Shown in pieces: positions 5,619-64,000 of a stretch of 64,000 nt of DNA. Position 1 is the first letter of the stretch. Every line of letters starts with the position of its first letter. The translations under genes were made by a program, and so were the position numbers. The notes beneath the pieces were generated by a model, which saw only the letters and a list, made by a program, of their open reading frames with translations, was not told the DNA's origin and ran no database searches. The DNA is from Marinibacterium anthonyi (lineage in GTDB: Bacteria; Pseudomonadota; Alphaproteobacteria; Rhodobacterales; Rhodobacteraceae): positions 1,413,501 to 1,477,500 of the forward strand of contig CP031585.1 in the NCBI GenBank assembly GCA_003217735.2, read 5' to 3'.

Positions 5619-6644
5619 TCAGCCGCGCGGGTCCAGCAGCTTGGCCAGGATCCCGTTGCGGGTGATCTGGCCCAGCAATTCGCCGTTCTCCATCACGCCG
5701 ACCGGGGCGGTATGGCCCTGGGTCGCCTCCATCACCTCCATGATCGTGGCCGACGGCGGCACGCAGGTCTCGGGCACCGTGGTCGCCGGTTCCATGACGT
5801 CGCCGGCGCACAGCACGCCCAAAGGGTTCATGTGGGCGACGAAATCGGCCACGTATTCGGTGGCGGGGGCGGAAAAGATGTCCTTGGGCGTGCCGTGCTG
5901 GACGATGCGCCCGCCCTCCATGATGGCGATGCGGTCGCCCAGCTTGAAGGCCTCGTCCAGGTCGTGGCTGACGAAGATGATGGTGCGGTTCAGCTTTTTC
6001 TGCAGCGCGATCAGCTCGTCCTGCAGGCGCGACCGGATCAGCGGGTCGAGCGCCGAGAACGGTTCGTCCATCAGCAGGATCGGTGCTTCGGTGGCGAAGG
6101 CGCGGGCCAGGCCGACGCGTTGCTGCATGCCGCCCGACAGTTCCCCCACCTTGCGGTCGGCCCAGTCCGACAGGCCGACCAGGTCAAGCTGGCGGTCCAC
6201 CTGTTCGGTGCGCGCCCTGCGGCCCATCCCGGCCAGTTCCAGCCCCAGCCCGACGTTTTCGCGCACGCTGCGCCAGGGCAGCAGGCCGAATTGCTGGAAC
6301 ACCATGGCGACGCGGTTCAGGCGGATCTGGCGCAGGGTGGCGGCATCGGCATGCGAAACGTCGACCAGCCCGTCGCCATTGTCCACGTGCACCGATCCGC
6401 GCACCACCGGGTTCAGCCCGTTGACGGCGCGCAGCAGGGTGGATTTGCCCGACCCGGACAGCCCCATCAGCACGAGGATCTCGCCTTCCTCGACGCTGAG
6501 CGAACAATCGTGGACCCCCAGCACCTGGCCGGTGGCGGTCTGGATCTCGGCCCGGTCCTTCATCGCATCCATCAGGGGCAGGGCGCGGTCGGGGTGGTCG
6601 CCGAAGACGATGTTGACCTTGTCGAAGGAAACGGCTGTGCCCAT
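5619..6644 (-). CDS. choV: Choline ABC transporter, ATP-binding subunit
   Basis: 341 aa. Walker A GLSGSGKST at 61-69, signature LSGGMQQ at 169-175 and Walker B LLMDEP near 190-195, followed by a C-terminal region resembling a CBS-type regulatory domain, as in ProV/OpuA ATPases. It energises high-affinity choline uptake with ChoW and ChoX. The start at 6642-6644 overlaps the choW stop by one base (TGATG), so translation is coupled. An in-frame extension upstream to 7175 is only the shadow of choW. Last gene of the choXWV operon. Confidence 0.95.
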   Translation of the reverse strand: MGTAVSFDKVNIVFGDHPDRALPLMDAMKDRAEIQTATGQVLGVHDCSLSVEEGEILVLMGLSGSGKSTLLRAVNGLNPVVRGSVHVDNGDGLVDVSHADAATLRQIRLNRVAMVFQQFGLLPWRSVRENVGLGLELAGMGRRARTEQVDRQLDLVGLSDWADRKVGELSGGMQQRVGLARAFATEAPILLMDEPFSALDPLIRSRLQDELIALQKKLNRTIIFVSHDLDEAFKLGDRIAIMEGGRIVQHGTPKDIFSAPATEYVADFVAHMNPLGVLCAGDVMEPATTVPETCVPPSATIMEVMEATQGHTAPVGVMENGELLGQITRNGILAKLLDPRG

Positions 6645-7477
6645 CAGTCCCGCTCCATCCGCAGCATCCGGTCGAGCATGATGGCCACGACCACGATGAT
6701 GAACCCGGATTCGAACCCAAGCGCGGTGTTCACCTGGTTCAGCGCCCGCACCACCGGCACGCCCAGCCCGTCGGCGCCGACAAGGGCGGCGATCACGACC
6801 ATGGACAGCGACAGCATGATGGTCTGGTTCAGCCCGGCCATGATCTGGGGCAGGGCATAGGGCAATTCGACCTTCCACAGCGTCTGGCGCGGGGTGGCGC
6901 CGAAGGCCTGCGAGGCTTCCAGCAGGGCCTGCGGGGTCGAGGTGACGCCCAGGTGGGTCAACCGGATCGGCGCGGGCAGCACGAAGATCACCGTGGCGAT
7001 CAGGCCCGGCACCATGCCGATGCCGAAAAAGACGATGGCGGGGATCAGGTAGACGAAGGTGGGCAGGGTCTGCATCAGGTCCAGGACGGGCCGCATGAGC
7101 TTGTAAAGCCCGGGCCGGTGCGCGGCGGCGATGCCGATGGGCATGCCCAGCCCCATGCAGACGATGCAGGCGCACAGCACCAGCGTCAGGCTTTCCAGCG
7201 TTTCTTCCCAGTAGCCCTGGTTGAGGATGAACAGGAACCCCAGCACCACGAAGGCGACGGTCTTCCAGCTGCGTTGCAGCGCCCAGGTGAGCGCGGCGAA
7301 GATCGCGACGATGACCAGCGGATGCGGGCTTTCCAGCGCCCAGAGGATGTGTTCGATCAGCGCGTCCATGGCATCGGAGAGCGCATCGAAAAACCAGCCC
7401 CCGTGCATCTGCAGCCAGTCAAAGACCGCACCGGCCCATTTCCCCACGGGGATCTTGTTTTCGGTCAACCAGTCCAT
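6644..7477 (-). CDS. choW: Choline ABC transporter, permease subunit
   Basis: 277 aa with about six membrane helices and the binding-protein-dependent permease loop (EASQAFGATPRQTLWKVELP, the EAA-type motif contacting the ATPase). The N-terminus MDWLTENKIPVGKWAGAVFD matches ProW/ChoW-type permeases. It lies between choX, 127 bp upstream across a hairpin-rich spacer, and choV, overlapping by one base. It forms the inner-membrane channel for choline. Confidence 0.95.
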   Translation of the reverse strand: MDWLTENKIPVGKWAGAVFDWLQMHGGWFFDALSDAMDALIEHILWALESPHPLVIVAIFAALTWALQRSWKTVAFVVLGFLFILNQGYWEETLESLTLVLCACIVCMGLGMPIGIAAAHRPGLYKLMRPVLDLMQTLPTFVYLIPAIVFFGIGMVPGLIATVIFVLPAPIRLTHLGVTSTPQALLEASQAFGATPRQTLWKVELPYALPQIMAGLNQTIMLSLSMVVIAALVGADGLGVPVVRALNQVNTALGFESGFIIVVVAIMLDRMLRMERD

Positions 7478-7499
7478 GCGTCCCTCGTCGATTGCGGTG

Positions 7500-7571
7500 C
7501 AAAATTCTTACAAGAATTTTGGCAAGAAAATCAGGGATTTTCCTGGCGGCGCGAGGTGCGCCCGCGCCGCC
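7500..7571 (-). promoter_or_regulatory. Hairpin cluster between choX and choW
   Basis: Three consecutive perfect inverted repeats lie in the 127-bp spacer: CAAAATTCTT/AAGAATTTTG (7500-7521), GAAAATC/GATTTTC (7526-7542) and GGCGGCGCG/CGCGCCGCC (7545-7571). In the choX-to-choW direction the GC stem comes first. Such structures often stabilise the binding-protein mRNA or partially terminate, making binding protein exceed permease. Function inferred. Confidence 0.55.
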
Positions 7572-7604
7572 TTGCGTCTGAGGTCAATACCTCAGGTCGG
7601 CGCT

Positions 7605-8525
7605 TCAGTTCAGCGCCGACTTGACCGCCGCCAACGCGTCGCCGCCATCCTTCGTGGTCACGCCGTCCAGCCAGCCGTCCAGCACGCCGGGATTGGCGGT
7701 CAGCCAGGCGGTAGCGGCCTTTGCCGGATCTTCGCCGTCATCCAGGATCGCGCCCATGATCTCGTTCTCCATGGGCAGGGTGAATTCGAGGTTTTCCAGC
7801 AGCTTGCCCACGTTCGGGCATTCGGTGACATAGCCCGCGCGCGTGTTGGTATAGACCGTCGCGCCGCCCAGATCGGGGCCGAAGTAATCGTCGCCGCCGG
7901 TCAGGTAGGACATGTCGTAATTGGCGTTCATCGGATGCGGCTCCCAGCCCAGGAAGACCACCGGCTCGCCGCGCCGGTCGGCGCGGGCGACCTGCGCCAG
8001 CATCCCCTGTTCAGAACTTTCCACCACTTCGAACCCGTCCAGGTCAAAGGCGTCGGCGTCGATCATGTCCATGATCAGCCGGTTGCCGTCGTTGCCCGGC
8101 TCGATCCCGTAGATCTTGCCGTCCAGTTCGTCCTTGTGGGCGGCGATGTCGGCGAAATCCTTGATGCCCAGGTCGGCGGCGGCCTTGTTGACGGCCAGCG
8201 TGTACTTGGCGCCTTCCAGGTTGGCGCGGACCGTGTCGACGGTGCCCGCATCGCGATAGGGGGCGATGTCGCCTTCCATGGTGGGCATCCAGTTGCCCAG
8301 GAACACGTCGATGTCGCCGGCCGCCATCGAGGTATAGGTCACCGGAACCGACAGAACCTTGATGTCGGTGTCGTATCCCAGCGCGTCCAGCACCACGGTG
8401 GTGGCCGCCGTCGTCGCGGTGATGTCGGTCCATCCCACGTCCGAGAACGTCACGTCGTCACATTCGGCAAACGCCGGGGCGGCGGCCAGAAGGGCCAGAA
8501 CGGAAAGGGTCGTCTTGGTCGTCAT
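7605..8525 (-). CDS. choX: Choline-binding periplasmic protein
   Basis: 306 aa. A signal peptide (MTTKTTLSVLALLAAAPAFA) precedes an OpuAC/ProX-type substrate-binding domain with motifs such as VFLGNWMPTMEGD and VVFLGWEPHPMNA, whose aromatic residues build the quaternary-ammonium cage. It delivers choline to ChoWV. The start at 8523-8525 follows GGGAGCC; in-frame sequence further upstream runs through the operator region and is not signal-like. First gene of choXWV, divergent from betI. Confidence 0.95.
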   Translation of the reverse strand: MTTKTTLSVLALLAAAPAFAECDDVTFSDVGWTDITATTAATTVVLDALGYDTDIKVLSVPVTYTSMAAGDIDVFLGNWMPTMEGDIAPYRDAGTVDTVRANLEGAKYTLAVNKAAADLGIKDFADIAAHKDELDGKIYGIEPGNDGNRLIMDMIDADAFDLDGFEVVESSEQGMLAQVARADRRGEPVVFLGWEPHPMNANYDMSYLTGGDDYFGPDLGGATVYTNTRAGYVTECPNVGKLLENLEFTLPMENEIMGAILDDGEDPAKAATAWLTANPGVLDGWLDGVTTKDGGDALAAVKSALN

Positions 8526-8572
8526 GTTGTCGGCTCCCTGTTTGTTGGTTTCCGCAAGGCTATTTTTTCTTG

Positions 8573-8586
8573 ATTGACGAGTCAAT
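8573..8586. promoter_or_regulatory. Candidate BetI operator between choX and betI
   Basis: Perfect dyad ATTGAC-GA-GTCAAT within the 106-bp divergent intergenic region, 47 bp upstream of choX and 45 bp upstream of betI. BetI is a TetR-type repressor that binds dyads of this style in bet promoters and is released by choline. The site could control both directions. Assignment is by position and symmetry. Confidence 0.55.
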
Positions 8587-8631
8587 AAACCGTTCCTACC
8601 CTTTGGCCGAAAGCCCGTGGAAGGATGCGGA

Positions 8632-9204
8632 ATGCCCAAAGTTGGGATGGAACCTGTCAGGCGGGATGCGCTGGTCAGGGCGACGATTGCCGAGATCGGG
8701 CAAGCCGGGTCGCTGGACGTGACCGTCAGCCAGATCGCGCGGCGGGCGGGGATGTCCTCGGCGCTGGCGCATCATTACTTCGGCGGCAAGGCCCAGATCT
8801 TCCTGGCGGCAATGCGCCACATCCTGACCGAATACGGGGCCGAGGTGCGCCGCGAACTGTCCGGCGCCGCCCCCGAACAACGGGCCGAGGCGATCATCCG
8901 GGCCAGTTTCGCGCCGTCGTCGTTCCGGCGCGAAAGCATCGGGGCCTGGATGACCTTCTACGTGCTGGCCCAGACCGAACCGCAGGCGCTGCGGCTGTGG
9001 CGGATCTACCAGCGCCGGCTGAGGTCCAACCTGACCCACGCGCTGCGCCCGGTCTGCCCGGCGCCCGAGGCGGCGGCCGACACGCTGATCGCGCTGATCG
9101 ACGGGCTCTACATCCGCGCCGCGCTCAATGACCCCGAGGCGCCGGGCCTCGCCCGCGATCACGCGCTGCGCGTGCTGGCACTGTTCAAGGACCAATCCGC
9201 ATGA
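8632..9204 (+). CDS. betI: TetR-family choline-responsive repressor BetI
   Basis: 190 aa. The N-terminus MPKVGMEPVRRDALVRATI is the BetI hallmark, followed by a TetR helix-turn-helix (TVSQIARRAGMSSALAHHYF, about residues 33-52). It represses choline uptake and oxidation genes until choline binds. The start at 8632 has AAGGA nine bases upstream; in-frame GTG 8617 would add five non-conserved residues. Its stop overlaps the betC start (ATGA), so the two are translationally coupled. Probably autoregulated through the dyad at 8573-8586. Confidence 0.95.
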   Translation: MPKVGMEPVRRDALVRATIAEIGQAGSLDVTVSQIARRAGMSSALAHHYFGGKAQIFLAAMRHILTEYGAEVRRELSGAAPEQRAEAIIRASFAPSSFRRESIGAWMTFYVLAQTEPQALRLWRIYQRRLRSNLTHALRPVCPAPEAAADTLIALIDGLYIRAALNDPEAPGLARDHALRVLALFKDQSA

Positions 9205-57994: not shown

Positions 57995-58015
57995 CGTTTA
58001 CGGGGGCGGTTCAGC

Positions 58016-58063
58016 TGTTAGTTATCACCCGGTTTGATATGCCGATTTCATGAGGTTTGACAC
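58016..58063 (-). mobile_element. Candidate end of Mu-like element (5'-TG terminus and transposase-site-like repeats)
   Basis: The sequence 5'-TGTTAGTTATCACCC begins at 58016, and GGTTTGATAT (58031-58040) and GGTTTGACAC (58054-58063) are two direct repeats 23 bp apart, as expected for transposase-binding sites inside a Mu-type end (TG...CA). The last prophage-like gene stops 72 bp inside. No target-site duplication can be checked, since the other end is outside the window. Confidence 0.4.
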
Positions 58064-58087
58064 CGGAAGAGCCGGGAAGTCCGGGGG

Positions 58088-58747
58088 TTATCCGGGATGA
58101 TCCGGAGAGGTCAGCCAGACCGAATGGTATTCTTTGAACAGCCGCTCTTTGTTCAAACCAGATGCCCTCGCAAAAAACTGGGGGGATTCGCGGTCTGACT
58201 TTTGGGAATCCTTGTTCGGAGAATTTGTTTGGGGAAACACTGAGACCACACGCGCGTACGGCACACAAAACTCCGCAGGCACAAAAGTGGGGAGTTTGGG
58301 AACCATTTCCTTAAACTCAGGGTCTTCAAAACAAAGCGTGTAAAGCGACACGAACTTACTATGGAACGAAATCTCGCCAACAGGCTCGACCTCGTAAACA
58401 ACTCCTCTGGAAATGGACGCGTACATTTGCGCCCATTTCTCTTGGTTTGTAATAAATATTTGCTCGTGAAAATACGTTGATGTTTTGTTCCAAGGCATGA
58501 AGTGCGGTGAGAAATTTGTGACGCTGCTGGGCAATAGAACATCGCCAACAAAACGACCAGTTGGACCGCCGTGTAGCCAGCGCGATCCCTCGGCACCTTT
58601 GACTACAATGTCATGCATCACTTGTTCCAACTCATCGAGCGGTTCACGTTCGCACTCAAGAGCTTCGAAGTAGTAATGAGCATACTTTTCCTTCAAGCTC
58701 CAGCCTTTGGTACCGTTGATCAACGACTTCCGTTTTTCAGCGTCCAT
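58088..58747 (-). CDS. Arr-like ADP-ribosyltransferase-fold protein, cargo of Mu-like element
   Basis: 219 aa, low GC for the window. Residues 55-125 line up by eye with rifampin ADP-ribosyltransferases: HG at 59-60, GD at 68-69, NF at 78-79, and GVVYEVEPVGEI (116-127), where Arr has YVVEPTG. The Arr tyrosine in the second motif seems to be Phe (IFITN), so activity may differ. The C-terminal 40 residues are unlike Arr. The start at 58745-58747 follows GAGGAGGAG. Overlaps the upstream HTH gene by 11 bp. Could be an ART toxin or modifier. Confidence 0.5.
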   Translation of the reverse strand: MDAEKRKSLINGTKGWSLKEKYAHYYFEALECEREPLDELEQVMHDIVVKGAEGSRWLHGGPTGRFVGDVLLPSSVTNFSPHFMPWNKTSTYFHEQIFITNQEKWAQMYASISRGVVYEVEPVGEISFHSKFVSLYTLCFEDPEFKEMVPKLPTFVPAEFCVPYARVVSVFPQTNSPNKDSQKSDRESPQFFARASGLNKERLFKEYHSVWLTSPDHPG

Positions 58748-59096
58748 CGGTACTCCTCCTCCACCATTCATAGATCGCGCTCTTACCCACGCGCCGAGCG
58801 GGCGGAAAAGCCTTAGCCACCGCATCTGCCAATTGCTGGAAAGTCATGCTGTCGATCCTCGCAGCGATGAATGCCTGAAGCTCGGGGTCTCCGTCGATCT
58901 TTGGAGCCCGACCAGGTCGGTGGAAACGGCGATGCTCCGAGACAGGAGCTGCGCTTTGCGGCGGATAGACCAAACCGCCTTGAAGGGTGGCTTCAAGCGC
59001 CGTTTCAAGGGCGGATATTGCGCAGCCTTGGGTGGCGTGACCGGCTCGAAGATCGGCCAGCGCTTGCAGGAGGTGGTCAGGAAGTTCTGAAGCCAT
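58737..59096 (-). CDS. Small HTH protein paired with Arr-like gene
   Basis: 119 aa. An N-terminal helical part and a linker, then LQAFIAARIDSMTFQQLADA and VGKSAIYEWWRR, an HTH of the kind in phage small-terminase/regulatory proteins (TFxQLAxxVAxxFPxxRxVxKSAIxxWW). The 11-bp overlap with the Arr-like gene indicates co-translation, typical of a toxin-antitoxin or regulator-effector pair. No other domain. Function inferred only. Confidence 0.5.
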   Translation of the reverse strand: MASELPDHLLQALADLRAGHATQGCAISALETALEATLQGGLVYPPQSAAPVSEHRRFHRPGRAPKIDGDPELQAFIAARIDSMTFQQLADAVAKAFPPARRVGKSAIYEWWRRSTDGR

Positions 59097-59123
59097 GGTG
59101 TTACCAACGTGCTCAAAGTCATA

Positions 59124-59157
59124 CGGTCCGTGACGGCCGGATCTCCGTCACGGACCG
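59124..59157. terminator. Strong hairpin between protease gene and cargo pair
   Basis: CGGTCCGTGACGG (59124-59136) pairs perfectly with CCGTCACGGACCG (59145-59157), loop of eight. Lies 36 bp after the protease stop and before the HTH gene start, so it may separate the head operon from the cargo operon. No T tract on the minus strand. Confidence 0.6.
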
Positions 59158-59192
59158 ACAAGACGCGCGCCAACTCGCCAGAAGCGCGCGCC

Positions 59193-60155
59193 TCATTCGG
59201 TGCCGTCCATTGCCTCAGGATCAATTCCGAGCTGCGAGCAAATGGCCGTGCGCTCGCTACTGCCTCGAAACCGTCCCCGCTCCAGTGTGGCCGGTGGCGT
59301 CTTTCCCGCTAGGCGGGGCGGACCAAGATTGACCAGTGGTAGCGCGGTCGCCTCCCATGCCTCGAAGCTGGCGAGGTTGCTGGACGCCAGTTCCTGTGCC
59401 CAACCCTCCATCGCGGGTACGAGCTTGCCCGTGCTTCTGGCACGCTCCAGCGCGGCTTCCACCCGGTCCTCATGCAACTCACTCAGGAGCGTCATGTAGC
59501 TGGACGCAAGTGCCTTGGCCGAAGCGTTGTCGGTTCTGGTGCTGTCCGCCGCCGCCAGGATCGCCTGTGCTCTGCGGATAAGATCCGCGACCGGTGTATC
59601 CGGCGAGGCCCCAAGGGCTTCACGCAACATCGCGATGACATCGGCTTTGTCCTGGGCCACATCACCCTCTGGCGTTTCGTCCTCGGTGGAACAAATCGCC
59701 TTCATGGCGATAGCTGGATCGTTGGTCAGTCCGGCACGCTTGATCGACATGACCTCGCCCGCCTTCGTGACCATCACAACAGGGCTGATGAAGCGGTACT
59801 CCCGCCCTTCGATCTTGGCCTTGCCGGTCGGGGTCCAGGCGATGCGGCCCCAGACACCATCGTCTCGGGCCGCAAGTTCTTCGATCCAGCCAGCCGCCGG
59901 CGCTTCGGCCTCACGATGGCGTTCAAGGGCGTGATCCATGTCCACCGGCATGCCACGTTCCAGATCGCCTCGCGAACGGGCGATCACTGCCGCAACGTCC
60001 TTCACAACCCAGGGACCCCGCTTGTCCGTCAGGTCGAAGCGCCCCGCAGGCAGGAGCTGCACCCAGCTCTCGGGCTTGCCGTCAGCGCTCGCAAGCTCGA
60101 TATCTGCCAGCAGCAACGCGTTCCCGGTTTCACGGTTCAAACTCATCACGGTCAC
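59193..60155 (-). CDS. Mu-like head protease/scaffold (gpI-like)
   Basis: 320 aa, close to Mu gpI (about 360). The N-terminal protease domain has WVQLLPAGRFDLTDKRGPWV and MPVDMDHALERHREAEAPAA, followed by GWIEEL; then a helical scaffold half (VIAMLREALGASPDTPVADL, AALERARSTGKLVPAMEGWA). It matures the phage capsid. It starts with an ATGA overlap of the head gene stop (60152-60155). In Mu the order is I before T; here T precedes I. Confidence 0.85.
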   Translation of the reverse strand: MTVMSLNRETGNALLLADIELASADGKPESWVQLLPAGRFDLTDKRGPWVVKDVAAVIARSRGDLERGMPVDMDHALERHREAEAPAAGWIEELAARDDGVWGRIAWTPTGKAKIEGREYRFISPVVMVTKAGEVMSIKRAGLTNDPAIAMKAICSTEDETPEGDVAQDKADVIAMLREALGASPDTPVADLIRRAQAILAAADSTRTDNASAKALASSYMTLLSELHEDRVEAALERARSTGKLVPAMEGWAQELASSNLASFEAWEATALPLVNLGPPRLAGKTPPATLERGRFRGSSERTAICSQLGIDPEAMDGTE

Positions 60156-61048
60156 GCTTGCAGATAGGGGGAGACCAGAAGTTCGGCCGAGCCACGCCAG
60201 ACGTTGGTTCCGCCACCGGTTAGCTCTTCAGCGGTAAGCAACGCGCGCCCTGCACCCTCCAGGTCGGGAGGCACCACAAGCAACGTCGGAACCACCCCCA
60301 TGACCCGCCCGCCATCATAGCGCATCGCCTGCATCGCCGCCCGTGCCGCCGCGTAGTTCGCTGCATCCAGCGTTTGTTTCGAGCCATAGGCATACTGCCA
60401 GAGGCCGAACCCGGCATTCACACGCGCCCGCACCCCGTAAAGGTATTCGTCGCGCATGAAGACGTTCCCGTCATCGTCCTTGGTCAACGACTGCATCCGG
60501 TATGGGATGCGGGTCTGGAATACCAGCGGCTTGACGGGGCGACTGACGTCCAGCAGGAACCAGGGCGTGCCAGCGCCGCCTTGGAAGTTCGACACGGATT
60601 GCTCCACGTTGTCCTTGTCCAGGACGGGATGGTCTGTATCGAAATAGGGCTGGCCATCGTAGCATTCCGTTTCGAACCCTTTCTTCAGCACTTCGAAAAC
60701 CAGCTCGTCAGGATGGGTCGCGGCGGCATAAGCCATCATGTTGATCTGCGGGGAATAGACCCCGAGCCGATCGTCTTCGATATCCTCACGCCGGACCCGG
60801 ATCGTGCTTTCAAACTTCCGGTTTTCCAGAGTGTAGCGGGCGGACTGCACGGCCTTGATGTACCGTTCGCCCAGCCACTCGCGCATCTGGGGCATGCCGC
60901 TGAGCCAGCCATAGGTTTCATCCGAGCCGGTGGACTTCACATCCATCGCGATCCGGTTCCAGAACACCGGTGTCGCCTGCACGGACTTGTTGAAGACCGT
61001 ATTGAAACCACTGAACATTTCGTTCAACAGCGAAGCCGTAATATCCAT
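60152..61048 (-). CDS. Mu-like major head protein (gpT-like)
   Basis: 298 aa, almost the length of Mu gpT (305). It starts MDITASLLNEMFSGFNTVFN, with YGWLSGMPQMREWLGERYIK, YGVRARVNAGFGLWQYAYGS and the closing GGTNVWRGSAELLVSPYLQ, standard for Mu-type HK97-fold head subunits. It looks intact. It starts two bases after the mor stop and overlaps the protease start by 4 bp. No portal or terminase is nearby, so packaging is not accounted for. Confidence 0.9.
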   Translation of the reverse strand: MDITASLLNEMFSGFNTVFNKSVQATPVFWNRIAMDVKSTGSDETYGWLSGMPQMREWLGERYIKAVQSARYTLENRKFESTIRVRREDIEDDRLGVYSPQINMMAYAAATHPDELVFEVLKKGFETECYDGQPYFDTDHPVLDKDNVEQSVSNFQGGAGTPWFLLDVSRPVKPLVFQTRIPYRMQSLTKDDDGNVFMRDEYLYGVRARVNAGFGLWQYAYGSKQTLDAANYAAARAAMQAMRYDGGRVMGVVPTLLVVPPDLEGAGRALLTAEELTGGGTNVWRGSAELLVSPYLQA

Positions 61049-61050
61049 TT

Positions 61051-61434
61051 TCAGACTTTCTTCGATTTCGCAGCAGGCGGGGTCTCGCCGCGCAATCTGC
61101 TGCGCAGCTTCCTGACCCACATGCTGGTGACGCCGTGTTTCGCGGCGAGTTCGTTGGATGAGAGGTCGGTTTCGATAACATCGCGCCAAAGGCACATGGT
61201 CTTGTGCATACGCTCGACATGCCCGCGCGACGGAACATCGATATTGCACCCGGCGTAGGCCTCGACCAGCACCCGAGTAAGCTCTTCACCCAGAGTTTCG
61301 ACAAGTTTTCCCGCAACACGTTTGGGAATGTCGATCCTCTGACCGCCATATTCCTGCACCAGTTTGAAAGCCAACTCCTGGCCGCAGGCAGAAATAACGG
61401 TCCTAGCGACGTTAGAGACGGAATAAACCTTCAT
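61051..61434 (-). CDS. mor: Mor-family middle-gene activator
   Basis: 127 aa. LAFKLVQEYGGQRIDIPKRV is the Mor dimer/GG-x-x-I-x-I-P signature; SSNELAAKHGVTSMWVRKLR is the C-terminal HTH. Mu Mor activates the middle promoter. ATG at 61434 with GGGGTG upstream is preferred to GTG 61443. Here Mor directly precedes the head gene with a 2-base gap, which is not the Mu arrangement. Confidence 0.85.
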   Translation of the reverse strand: MKVYSVSNVARTVISACGQELAFKLVQEYGGQRIDIPKRVAGKLVETLGEELTRVLVEAYAGCNIDVPSRGHVERMHKTMCLWRDVIETDLSSNELAAKHGVTSMWVRKLRSRLRGETPPAAKSKKV

Positions 61435-61750
61435 GCACCGCACCCCATTAGTGATGCATTAGTGCTATCGCCGAATGGACTGGTATACCCGGGGGATGCG
61501 GTCCTGAGATCCGCATGCCTACGTCGCCTGAAATCGCGTTCGTCCGCCCTGGGTTCGAAATCAAGCGAGCGAATGCAAGGCTCGAGCGGGGGTATTGGTT
61601 GTGGACACTGCCCGATTGCGACCGTTGGCGCAATGCCCTCTCCTACGCTCTTGGCTTCATCCATTCACCGAATGCAGCCAGCCCCGGAGGAGCCCTCTGA
61701 GGGGCCAATAGGGATTTCGGCCCCAAGGGATCGCAAATGAGGGAGATGGG

Positions 61751-61782
61751 CATTTTTGAACGCGCTCCGGCGTTTTTGAACG
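61751..61782. promoter_or_regulatory. Direct repeats TTTTTGAACG upstream of mor
   Basis: CATTTTTGAACG (61751-61762) and CGTTTTTGAACG (61771-61782), 20 bp apart, about two helical turns. Suitable for binding a phage regulator on one face of DNA. Position is 317-348 bp upstream of mor. Confidence 0.4.
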
Positions 61783-61846
61783 GTGTCTCGTCGCACACCG
61801 TAGATCTACCCATGTCTGGCGCATTCAGGCGGTCCCGAAATGAACA

Positions 61847-61872
61847 AGGGCGGCACCTTGCGGCACCGCCCT
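61847..61872 (-). terminator. Hairpin after gemA
   Basis: AGGGCGG (61847-61853) pairs with CCGCCCT (61866-61872), loop of 12. Minus strand continues TTGTTCATTT, a modest T-rich tail. It ends 22 bp beyond the gemA stop. Confidence 0.6.
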
Positions 61873-61894
61873 CGTGATGTTCGACCGGGGACGG

Positions 61895-62305
61895 TCAGGC
61901 TGCCCTTGCCTTCATGGCCTTGAGCGCCGTGATGACCTTCGGCGCGTTCCGCGCCCGCAGAAACCGAAGGCTGGACACCTTCCAGCAGCGCTCAAGCCAC
62001 TTGTTCAGTTCATCTTCCCCGGCTTCGCCCCGCGTGTATTCGTGCCAGAGCACCCGGATCAGTTCGATCTGTGCGAAGCTCGCCATGCCGGGCCGGTCGC
62101 CGTAGTCTGCACCGCGCGCCTGGAGCGGCGTGAAGCCCAGCCATTGCAGGAAGCCCATCATGGCCTCGAAGCCGTCACCGTCCAGTTCCTTCGTGCTGGT
62201 AACTCCGGCGATCTGCACGAGGGCGCTACGCCAAGTCGCATCGTCCAGTCCGGTCTTGGACTTCCCCGTCCAGAGGAACTTGAGCTGTTGAGGAGTGATT
62301 GTCAT
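61895..62305 (-). CDS. gemA: GemA-like regulator (gp16/DUF1018 family)
   Basis: 136 aa. MTITPQQLKFLWTGKSKTGL is the GemA/gp16 beginning, with ALVQIAGVTSTKELDGDGFE and FMGFLQWLGF-type central motif; C-terminal DKWL-like helix. In Mu, GemA modulates host gyrase and gene expression in the early operon. Overlaps the upstream 166-aa gene by 4 bp. Confidence 0.88.
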   Translation of the reverse strand: MTITPQQLKFLWTGKSKTGLDDATWRSALVQIAGVTSTKELDGDGFEAMMGFLQWLGFTPLQARGADYGDRPGMASFAQIELIRVLWHEYTRGEAGEDELNKWLERCWKVSSLRFLRARNAPKVITALKAMKARAA

Positions 62306-62802
62306 GAGAGCAACTCCTTTTCTGATGCCTGAGTGGTTGCGCTACGGATGATGGAAGCCAGTCGAGATGCGGCCTTACCTTCGGTCTCAGCCGCACTGCG
62401 CATGGCACGTTCGGCGAGTTCCATTACAGCCAGGGGGCCATAGTCATCGGATGCGAAGTAACCCATGCTGATACCAGCATGCAGCAACTCGAATACCGAA
62501 GCTGCGGAGTTCAGAAGGTTTTGCAGATCCTCGGTCGAGCTGCATACAGCGTTCGCCTCTGTGCGGGGAAGAGCAAGTGTCACGCAATCGCCTTGATCGT
62601 GAGCCTGCCGCAAACGGCGCAGCTCGCCAGTCAGTCGGTGGGCTTCGTCCACGACACCCACGATGTGACCGAACGCTGTATGCTCACACTGACCGATTTC
62701 ATCTTGGATCAAGTGAACGGCGGTCAAAAGAGGGTGCTCAAGCCCGGCCAGATGCGCTTCGAACTCCGTGAAAAGGTCGGCCATCGAATGGAGGTCTTTC
62801 AT
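62302..62802 (-). CDS. Prophage early hypothetical protein (166 aa)
   Basis: 166 aa, helical (LFTEFEAHLAGLEHPLLTAV, NLLNSAASVFELLHAGISMG), no HTH, signal or membrane span recognised. ATGA overlaps on both sides (with the 100-aa gene and gemA) show it is part of one translationally coupled early operon. Function unknown. Confidence 0.7.
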   Translation of the reverse strand: MKDLHSMADLFTEFEAHLAGLEHPLLTAVHLIQDEIGQCEHTAFGHIVGVVDEAHRLTGELRRLRQAHDQGDCVTLALPRTEANAVCSSTEDLQNLLNSAASVFELLHAGISMGYFASDDYGPLAVMELAERAMRSAAETEGKAASRLASIIRSATTQASEKELLS

Positions 62803-63101
62803 TGGATCGGCCCCCCTTTGCCATGAGGGTCAGAAATGACCGCGCTAAGGATGACTGGGGCCAGTGCCCGCTTCATCCTTTCGGCGCGCTCCGCGTCTTG
62901 CCGAAGGCCCGTCGCCAGTGCCAATAGATCTTGTGACTCGGACGGCCCGATTTGATCTGCATTCAGGATCTCCAAGAACCGTTCCGAATAGTTCCAGGCG
63001 ATGGTCGGAAATTCTGCGAGGGCGGCCGTCATTTCGCGAGCCGGCTCCACCTGAGACGCCTTAAGCGGGAAGAAGACGTTCACGTCACGATCCTCCTTCA
63101 T
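62799..63101 (-). CDS. Prophage early hypothetical protein (100 aa)
   Basis: 100 aa, helical and charged (SQVEPAREMTAALAEFPTIA, AERAERMKRALAPVILSAVI). Starts 4 bp inside the muB stop and ends 4 bp inside the next gene. No recognised domain. Position between MuB and GemA is where Mu keeps small semi-essential early genes. Confidence 0.7.
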   Translation of the reverse strand: MKEDRDVNVFFPLKASQVEPAREMTAALAEFPTIAWNYSERFLEILNADQIGPSESQDLLALATGLRQDAERAERMKRALAPVILSAVISDPHGKGGPIQ

Positions 63102-63877
63102 TTCATGCCCCTCGGTGCAAGCTTCATGTCGATGATCGCCGCTTTGAGATGTTCCAGCGTCGGCGCATCTTCGCCTGCGAACAGCACGGCGATTTGGGTG
63201 ACGTTCACAACATTGCGGAGACCGCCTTTCAGCCTCGCAATCGCATGCAGCGCGTCGATAGCTGCCGGATTGGCGAAGGGAGTGCCCTCAACCAATGCCG
63301 CAACGTCGGCCCTGCTGGAGTGCCGGATCACGACCGGGCGCATCATCCGACTTTGCAGCTGCGGCTTATTCTCAATGGAGCTGGGTAGGTCCAGATCTCC
63401 ACAGAACACTAGGTGAAACCGCCCTGTTTCCGCCGTAGCTCGCAGCCATTCGAAGGCTTCGCCGATTTGACCGGTCTTGCGGTTGCGCTGATTGAGATAC
63501 TGCGCTTCATCAACAATCAGCACGCGGCCTTGACCGATGTATGCGGCGATCTTGTCGCGCGCCTCGGAATGGCAGTTGAATGTTGGCTTCGCATACCCCC
63601 AGAGATTTGCAAGAGCGTGAGCGAAGTTCCACGCCGTACCCTCTCCACATGCCGCCTGAATATAGATCGCGTCTTGCCCTAGCGTCTCGCAGAAGCGCTG
63701 AACAGCGGACGTCTTGCCGGTGCCCGGTGCGCCAGCGATCATTGTGAGGGCTGGGCGATCCGCCGCATTTACCAGGTCGAGCGAACGCCGGATGTCCTTT
63801 GCAGTTTCCGTGTTTGCCCAATCGCCGATCCCGCGTTGGACAATGCCGGGATTGGCAATGCTTAGATGCTGTGCCAT
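63098..63877 (-). CDS. Mu-like transposition ATPase MuB
   Basis: 259 aa. AAA+ ATPase: GAPGTGKT at 49-56, RVLIVDEAQYLNQRNRKTGQ (Walker B and box), FHLVFCGDLDLPSSIENKPQ. MuB binds target DNA and delivers it to the transposase, giving target immunity. Start at 63875-63877. Lies just after a presumed transposase gene at the window edge. Confidence 0.9.
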   Translation of the reverse strand: MAQHLSIANPGIVQRGIGDWANTETAKDIRRSLDLVNAADRPALTMIAGAPGTGKTSAVQRFCETLGQDAIYIQAACGEGTAWNFAHALANLWGYAKPTFNCHSEARDKIAAYIGQGRVLIVDEAQYLNQRNRKTGQIGEAFEWLRATAETGRFHLVFCGDLDLPSSIENKPQLQSRMMRPVVIRHSSRADVAALVEGTPFANPAAIDALHAIARLKGGLRNVVNVTQIAVLFAGEDAPTLEHLKAAIIDMKLAPRGMK

Positions 63878-63944
63878 TGTTGCCTCCGTTCAATGTGAGG
63901 GCTGACGCCCTCGGTGAATGGCATGGGGGGCGGTGCAACGCCTC

Positions 63945-64000
63945 TCATGCCGACGAACCGCCTCGCGAGCCTTTGGCTGCAAGAGCGGCATCCATGTTCC
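63945..64000 (-). CDS. Possible C-terminal tail of upstream gene (expected MuA transposase), partial
   Basis: A minus-strand open frame runs from the window edge to TGA at 63945-63947: 17 codons ending in Gly/Ser/Ala-rich residues (ALAAKGSRGGSSA), 67 bp before muB. Gene order in Mu puts MuA here. Too short to prove. Confidence 0.3.
   Translation of the reverse strand, partial: NMDAALAAKGSRGGSSA

Follow-up and report, generated by a model that had tools for sequence, protein, structure and literature searches.

The window analysed here is a 64,000-nucleotide stretch of the 6.8-Mb genome of Marinibacterium anthonyi (C1:1413501-1477500, contig CP031585.1), and the sequence past its edge was also analysed. 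At this edge lies a compact Mu-like element, which is a complete and precisely bounded Mu-type transposon of 8,892 bp (C1:1471516-1480407, equivalent to window positions 58016-66907) that extends 2.9 kb beyond the window. Its genes are transcribed in the order MuA, MuB, u100, u166, GemA, Mor, gpT, gpI, h119 and an accessory gene, with a divergent repressor-like helix-turn-helix (HTH) gene. The features are as follows.

58011..58015, no strand: left copy of the 5-bp target duplication TCAGC; the right copy lies at C1:1480408-1480412, after the other end
58016..64000, minus strand: in-window part of the compact Mu-like element, with TG...CA ends and an exact 5-bp duplication
58024..58060, plus strand: paired end repeats of the TTCANNNGGTTTGA type, with copies at 58024 and 58047, 23 bp apart
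58088..58747, minus strand: accessory gene, 219 aa from an ATG within a longer open reading frame (ORF); weak phrog_17296 match (1.2e-10), function unassigned
58737..59096, minus strand: h119, small HTH protein of 119 aa, last core gene of the family and conserved across it
59193..60155, minus strand: gpI-type head maturation protease/scaffold, 320 aa (PF10123 2.7e-51, phrog_328 1.2e-59)
60152..61048, minus strand: gpT-type major capsid protein, 298 aa (PF10124 5e-124, phrog_371 1.7e-119)
61051..61443, minus strand: Mor-type late activator (PF08765 4.6e-8, phrog_836 4e-18)
61895..62305, minus strand: GemA (PF06252 1.1e-23)
62302..62802, minus strand: u166, small early protein of 166 aa, function unassigned, with similar ORFs in several relatives
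62799..63101, minus strand: u100, small early protein of 100 aa, function unassigned, with similar ORFs in several relatives
63098..63877, minus strand: MuB-type transposition ATPase (PF13401, AAA_22, 2.7e-13; PF09077 2.8e-11)
63945..64000, minus strand: 3' end of the MuA transposase gene, which goes on to window-equivalent 65903 (PF02914 1.5e-19)
66170-66700 (window-equivalent, outside the window), plus strand: repressor-like HTH gene

Both ends of the element were located. At the left junction (58011/58016) TCAGC is directly followed by TGTTAGTT..., the boundary sequence being read at the same place as TCAGC and TGTTAGTTATCACCCGGTTTGATA, and the opposite end, at C1:1480407, reads inward as TGACGGGTTTCACCCAGTTTGATACC and is flanked by TCAGC as well. 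The end repeats are also present at this other end, in two copies 65 bp apart. With at most one mismatch, TTCANNNGGTTTGA occurs only twice in the 64-kb window, both times at the left element end, and only four times in a 19.9-kb stretch (L004), two per element end. The TG...CA ends, the 5-bp duplication and the repeated sites, which are putative MuA sites, are those of a Mu-type element, and the association of a DDE_2 (MuA) transposase with a MuB-type ATPase (PF02914 1.5e-19, PF09077 2.8e-11) is that of a Mu-like transposable element. An empty site was found in a congener (G405), in which the flanking genes are collinear and the alignable parts lie 83 bp apart, a few bases at the junction itself not aligning. 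The GC content is about 58-62% in the element versus about 64-70% over most of the window.

A preliminary description of the window had placed a candidate element end at 58016, and this was right, as the TCAGC duplication is found there and after C1:1480407. Its identification of MuB, GemA, Mor, gpT and gpI was borne out by Pfam matches (from PF08765 at 4.6e-8 for Mor to PF10124 at 5e-124 for gpT), and MuA (PF02914 1.5e-19), the repressor-like HTH gene and the other end, all expected past 64000, were located there. It had also considered that missing late genes might lie just outside the window, where the element ends, 2.9 kb past the edge, without any of them. No portal, terminase or tail genes were found in the element up to its second end, as had been proposed; the absence of lysis genes was proposed as well, and here no lysis enzyme was recognised among the element proteins scanned, a small holin being still possible. 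The largest unassigned ORF on the transcribed strand has 77 aa, so that there is no room in this direction for a portal or a large terminase subunit; ORFs on the opposite strand reach up to 178 aa. The Pfam scan of ten element proteins revealed no integrase other than the rve core of MuA. Of the two last genes, together taken for a cargo, only the terminal one (58088-58747) looks accessory, with matches in 2 of the 198 family genomes searched, its own genome counted, while h119 belongs to the conserved core of the family. The accessory gene was considered as a defence gene and rejected, having no PADLOC or NCBIfam match and a weak PHROG match as its sole one.

Related elements are present in many genera of the same bacterial family. 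A gpT search of 394 genomes of this family gave matches in 61, of which 16 genomes were compared at 18 places (19 stretches), the remainder being unclassified. A scan with a MuA alignment gave 26 loci in genome contigs and 2 in viral contigs, and no terminase or portal match was observed at any of the 26. MuA, MuB, GemA, gpT, gpI and h119 are all present at 10 of them (L057-L060, L062-L064, L066, L069 and L071), which by title come from Primorskyibacter, Ruegeria, Maritimibacter, Roseobacter, Sediminimonas and metagenome-assembled genomes (MAGs), one of these labelled Verrucomicrobiales. The other 16 are contig-cut, truncated or decayed; L077 is without the MuB match only, and L065 ends before h119. 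The contigs of two loci, L059 and L065, belong to MAGs whose titles name Verrucomicrobiales and Burkholderiaceae; these are probably misbinned. In viral contigs, a scan with h119 gave 5 loci, one of them known already. Spread beyond the bacterial family was rejected, since the h119 profile gave little outside it in 385 genomes of the class (its own genome and three weak, short matches). Plasmid records contained no h119 match and no MuA place with 80% query coverage.

GemA, gpT, gpI and h119 are common to 23 loci, the window included. In a comparison of the layouts of 23 elements, 12 showed TG...CA ends and an exact 5-bp duplication, a count that is partly a matter of construction, as the end search demanded a duplication. 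In scans made without that demand, the end-repeat pair was found at both ends of all 12 duplication-flanked elements, and its spacing is constant (64-65 bp next to the repressor, 22-23 bp at the opposite end). These elements are 6.8-8.9 kb long, plus one of 10.8 kb with an interrupted MuA. For L062, one end search scored a longer, chance candidate above the true ends, and another search ranked the true ends first. Three further elements (L047, L059 and L071) have repeat pairs at both ends and, judged by eye, no matching 5-mers; in the remaining 8, the contig stops or at least one end could not be clearly located. The elements occupy differing neighbourhoods, and some genomes have several copies.

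Around the common genes, the content varies. Some members carry additional gp33-like and gpG-like head proteins, and Mor-like or HTH regulators are sited before gpT or after gpI in different members. In L083, an IMG/VR contig that begins 116 bp beyond one end of the element and breaks off near the expected other end, a 700-aa tail tape measure (6597-8699, PF10145 4.2e-50) takes the position expected for gpI. A compact element with a DUF4062 / PDC-S60-like ORF, a possible defence cargo, was seen at L078:11972-12817. Genome G386 (L044, L045, L046) has several closely alike gpT copies, and in L044 two ORFs, of 528 and 317 aa, break up the MuA gene. Ten h119 matches, several of them short or with stops, point to many decayed copies in the single genome G066. 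Finally, L075 (8980-12764), a MuA relative without capsid genes, was considered as a larger phage and rejected; it is a truncated copy with end repeats, repressor, MuA and MuB, and its right half is replaced by chromosomal-looking ORFs.

The compact elements were compared with other gpT-bearing loci in a set of 111, made of 29 compact loci and 82 others, the latter mostly from one IMG/VR scan (best 80 of 597). The gene for gpI precedes that for gpT at 74 of the 111, 53 of these 74 having a terminase or portal in reach, and the reverse order is found at 28; a further locus (L083) has h119 and no gpI, and at 8 neither gpI nor h119 was detected. Gene order follows h119 closely. At the 25 loci where h119 stands after gpT, all 24 that have gpI show gpT before gpI, whereas gpI comes first at 74 of the 78 loci with gpI and without h119. 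Of the four exceptions, L084 and L065 are on contigs that end early, and L078 and L045 are incomplete or decayed. None of the 82 non-compact loci has h119. With terminase and portal queries taken from two phages, a large terminase (terL) or portal match on the same strand within 15 kb was found for none of the 29 compact gpT rows versus 53 of the 82 others, many of the unmatched others being short contigs. In this respect the compact elements differ from an autonomous Mu-like phage, which has portal, terminase and tail genes.

A gpT tree was computed after exclusion of six doubly fetched loci, rows with two or more stops and gpT matches shorter than 270 residues. In this tree 27 compact capsids form one clade (support 100/98), and a single clade of all 29 was not rejected (p-AU 0.788), the constrained tree even having the higher likelihood; the compact capsids are thus a recurring lineage that evolves apart from the phages. 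A single origin, as judged from these sequences, is possible rather than proven: in the unconstrained tree the window gpT and its G382 counterpart sit together on a long branch of their own, apart from the main compact clade, and yet one clade of 29 is not rejected. A short gpI was also considered as a sign of small heads (compact median 312.5 aa in 24 rows versus 352 in 69 rows). It was given little weight, because of the non-independence of the rows and because gpI measures about 322-324 aa in a group of full phages close to the compact capsids.

Sequence comparison suggests that the late cassette of gpT, gpI and h119 travels as a unit, because it is shared with G382 despite unlike MuA and also stands behind other transposases. 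Between the window and G382, gpT is 80%, gpI 76% and h119 66% identical, versus only 32% for MuA and 33% for MuB. The MuA of the window is 57-69% identical to seven other members of alignment A1, and its MuB up to 74% identical to that of L043 and 76% to that of L063. In L050 and L055, the cassette lies behind transposases without a PF02914 match. Simple Nei-Gojobori counts, which carry no significance test, gave a dN/dS of 0.13-0.24 for gpT in six pairs, of about 0.12, 0.19 and 0.27 for gpI in the less diverged pairs L065/L066, L136/L137 and L064/L135, and of about 0.17 and 0.36 for h119 in two pairs from among these. The L046 copy has four stops in gpI.

The AlphaFold model of h119 (mean pLDDT 82.8, pTM 0.46) shows one long helix and, at the C-terminus, a helix-turn-helix, and no Foldseek match was obtained at E <= 0.001. 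No h119 match was found in phage or plasmid records. On account of its gene position, fold type and restriction to the compact family, h119 may be guessed to be the best candidate for steering a helper's packaging or assembly to the element.

Several known systems share part of this arrangement. The gpT of Rhodobacterales transposable siphophages with Mu-like heads (RC1, RS1, vB_ThpS-P1, vB_PeaS-P1 and vB_RhkS_P1) is 49-52% identical to that of the element. RS1, by its annotation, likewise has a repressor, transposase, transposition protein, late activator and head protease; unlike the element, it has a small terminase, portal and tail genes, with the order protease, structural protein, capsid. 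Records of RC1/RS1-type siphophages are 38.8-40.2 kb long versus 8,892 bp for the element. Among 50,697 phage records, the MuA of the window element found no place with 80% query coverage and was 26-30% identical in the 20 matches listed of 162; by this comparison, phage MuA appears related to it distantly only. Phage Mu and artificial mini-Mu have the same MuA/MuB, GemA, Mor, gpT and gpI families and a 5-bp duplication, as in the compact elements. The latter are distinguished by being natural, conserved and reduced, with gpT before gpI and with h119. PICI-type satellites have a site-specific integrase and an att site, whereas the element inserts with 5-bp duplications among differing neighbours. 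The cf-PICIs resemble it as small elements with their own major capsid and head protease. According to the accessible part of PMC10690885, they encode in addition the portal, the connectors and both terminase subunits; no portal or terminase subunit was found in the compact family, which has MuA/MuB instead. P4-like satellites, PICIs, PLEs, PICMIs, tycheposons and VEIMEs are the known satellite families in the part of PMC11389934 consulted, and have presumed helper-dependent spread in common with the compact elements. The available portion of PMC5488378 treats Mu-like elements in bacterial genomes and does not describe compact ones. The literature compared, which takes in these three sources and PMC12486242, each in part, and which left out most subscription papers, yielded no description of compact Mu-type elements bearing a capsid.

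Taken together, the window element probably belongs to a family of compact, transposable satellites of phages, which have their own Mu transposase and shell and rely on a helper for portal, terminase and tail. The elements occur across many genera within a single bacterial family, and their most likely means of spread is the use of parts from a related virus. Since no compact element was found with the parts that fill a shell, another phage would be needed for spread in particles, and we infer packaging and helper dependence from the genes. The element would be silent under its own repressor; on induction or helper infection, MuA and MuB would copy it around the chromosome and the Mor-like activator would switch on the late cassette. 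From gpT and gpI a shell sized for the element of about 7.5-9 kb would be built, a helper with Mu-like heads would supply portal, terminase, tail and lysis, and h119, at a guess, would steer the helper's packaging or assembly toward the element. A more specific proposal is slightly favoured, namely that these elements are an undescribed class of satellites with Mu-type transposition and their own capsid shell (a tape measure replacing the protease in one IMG/VR contig), which parasitise phages with Mu-like heads for portal, terminase and tail and use h119 as a family-specific redirector of packaging or assembly. The preliminary description had offered an internal deletion, a satellite with a helper phage and a domesticated capsid-plus-protease element, and of these three the satellite fits best.

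The search for a helper gave a modest signal. Among the 394 family genomes, h119 was found in 31 and PF11985 (Mu-type small terminase) in 39, with both in 8 versus 3.1 expected (Fisher one-sided p = 0.0064). The genome of the element itself contains, at C1 ~3566-3592 kb (L005/L006), a Mu-like cluster with small and large terminase, portal and gpI-gp33-gpT, the terminase and portal genes being separated by one for a D12 DNA methyltransferase. Family or profile checks cover the small terminase, gpT and a few other genes of this cluster, the rest being named by place and phage similarity. Beside the cluster lies a CRISPR array of 11 repeats (L005:472-5771, C1 3560471-3565770) with neighbouring ORFs that we take from their sequence to be cas-like. 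Its 10 spacers were considered as a clue and rejected, the best exact match to any compared locus being 15 bp, as by chance.

A number of observations nevertheless weigh against a satellite. PF11985 is absent from 23 of the 31 genomes bearing h119, and the co-occurrence may reflect merely genomes rich in mobile DNA. The co-resident cluster may be no working helper, because a PF02914 match is absent from it and a search of it gave no tape measure. The ends of phage RS1 are without the element's repeats, so that the idea of ends shared with a helper was rejected. In the same way, h119 was rejected as a terminase small subunit: its motif (GKSAI...) is superficially similar to that of the Mu-type small terminase, the profile similarity is non-significant (hhalign to Phage_Mu_Gp27, probability 3%, P 0.005) and there is no Foldseek match at E <= 0.001. 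Many copies are decayed or truncated (L072, L073, L075, L077, L080, L046 and G066). The separate branch of the window capsid and the simple counting of dN/dS belong on the same side.

Among the other explanations, the elements could be Mu-type transposons that use capsid and protease as a weapon, gpT and gpI co-assembling with or misprocessing infecting Mu-like heads and so protecting the host, without packaging of the element. The retention of capsid and protease without portal or terminase and the 23 carrying genomes without a PF11985 phage would suit this, but the gpG/gp33-type additions, the tape measure of L083 and the dedicated last gene h119 suit particle making better, and transfer between genera would need a vehicle; we regard it as unlikely, although the element may have some role in interfering with phages. 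It is very unlikely that the element is packaged, as a plain mini-Mu, in full-size helper heads that also take up host DNA, and that its own capsid genes have a different function. Mu-type headful packaging can accept short Mu derivatives, and the element has its own MuA/MuB and ends; this explanation leaves the retention of gpT and gpI at low dN/dS unaccounted for.

A compartment or particle domesticated by the host, like an encapsulin or a gene transfer agent and on a transposon by chance, would need just capsid and protease for an empty shell and no packaging genes. Such domestication, among the options of the preliminary description, fits poorly and is highly improbable: occupancy is low (h119 in 31 of 394 family genomes), and the precise ends, exact duplications, differing neighbours, multiple copies and empty site in the congener are the behaviour of a mobile element. 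As for the idea of Mu-like prophages left derelict once an internal deletion had removed most of their late genes, the MuA, MuB, GemA, Mor, gpT and gpI are indeed all of Mu-phage families and many copies are decayed. A simple deletion cannot reverse gene order, and internal deletion is thus disfavoured by gpT standing before gpI in 24 of 24 loci with h119, versus the opposite order in 74 loci. The same is argued by a family-specific gene, which all 82 non-compact gpT loci lack, by one capsid clade, by low dN/dS and by conserved ends in many genera. The order MuB-GemA-Mor-gpT-gpI, which might have been peculiar to a single decaying strain, was sought in genomes and recurs across many genera, some relatives being decayed and many having open frames. 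The derelict explanation is largely refuted and scarcely credible.

The gene h119 sets the compact elements apart from the 82 gpT loci used for comparison, and it allows them to be annotated rather than dismissed as prophage remnants. In the accessible part of PMC11389934, Mu-type transposition is not ascribed to any of the satellite families named, nor does any of them appear there as a Mu-type transposon carrying gpT and gpI together. If the satellite interpretation is true, transposable phages would have natural parasites of their own and a shell would be exchangeable without portal or terminase. The elements would then also offer a system in which to study how head size is set by a capsid protein and its protease.

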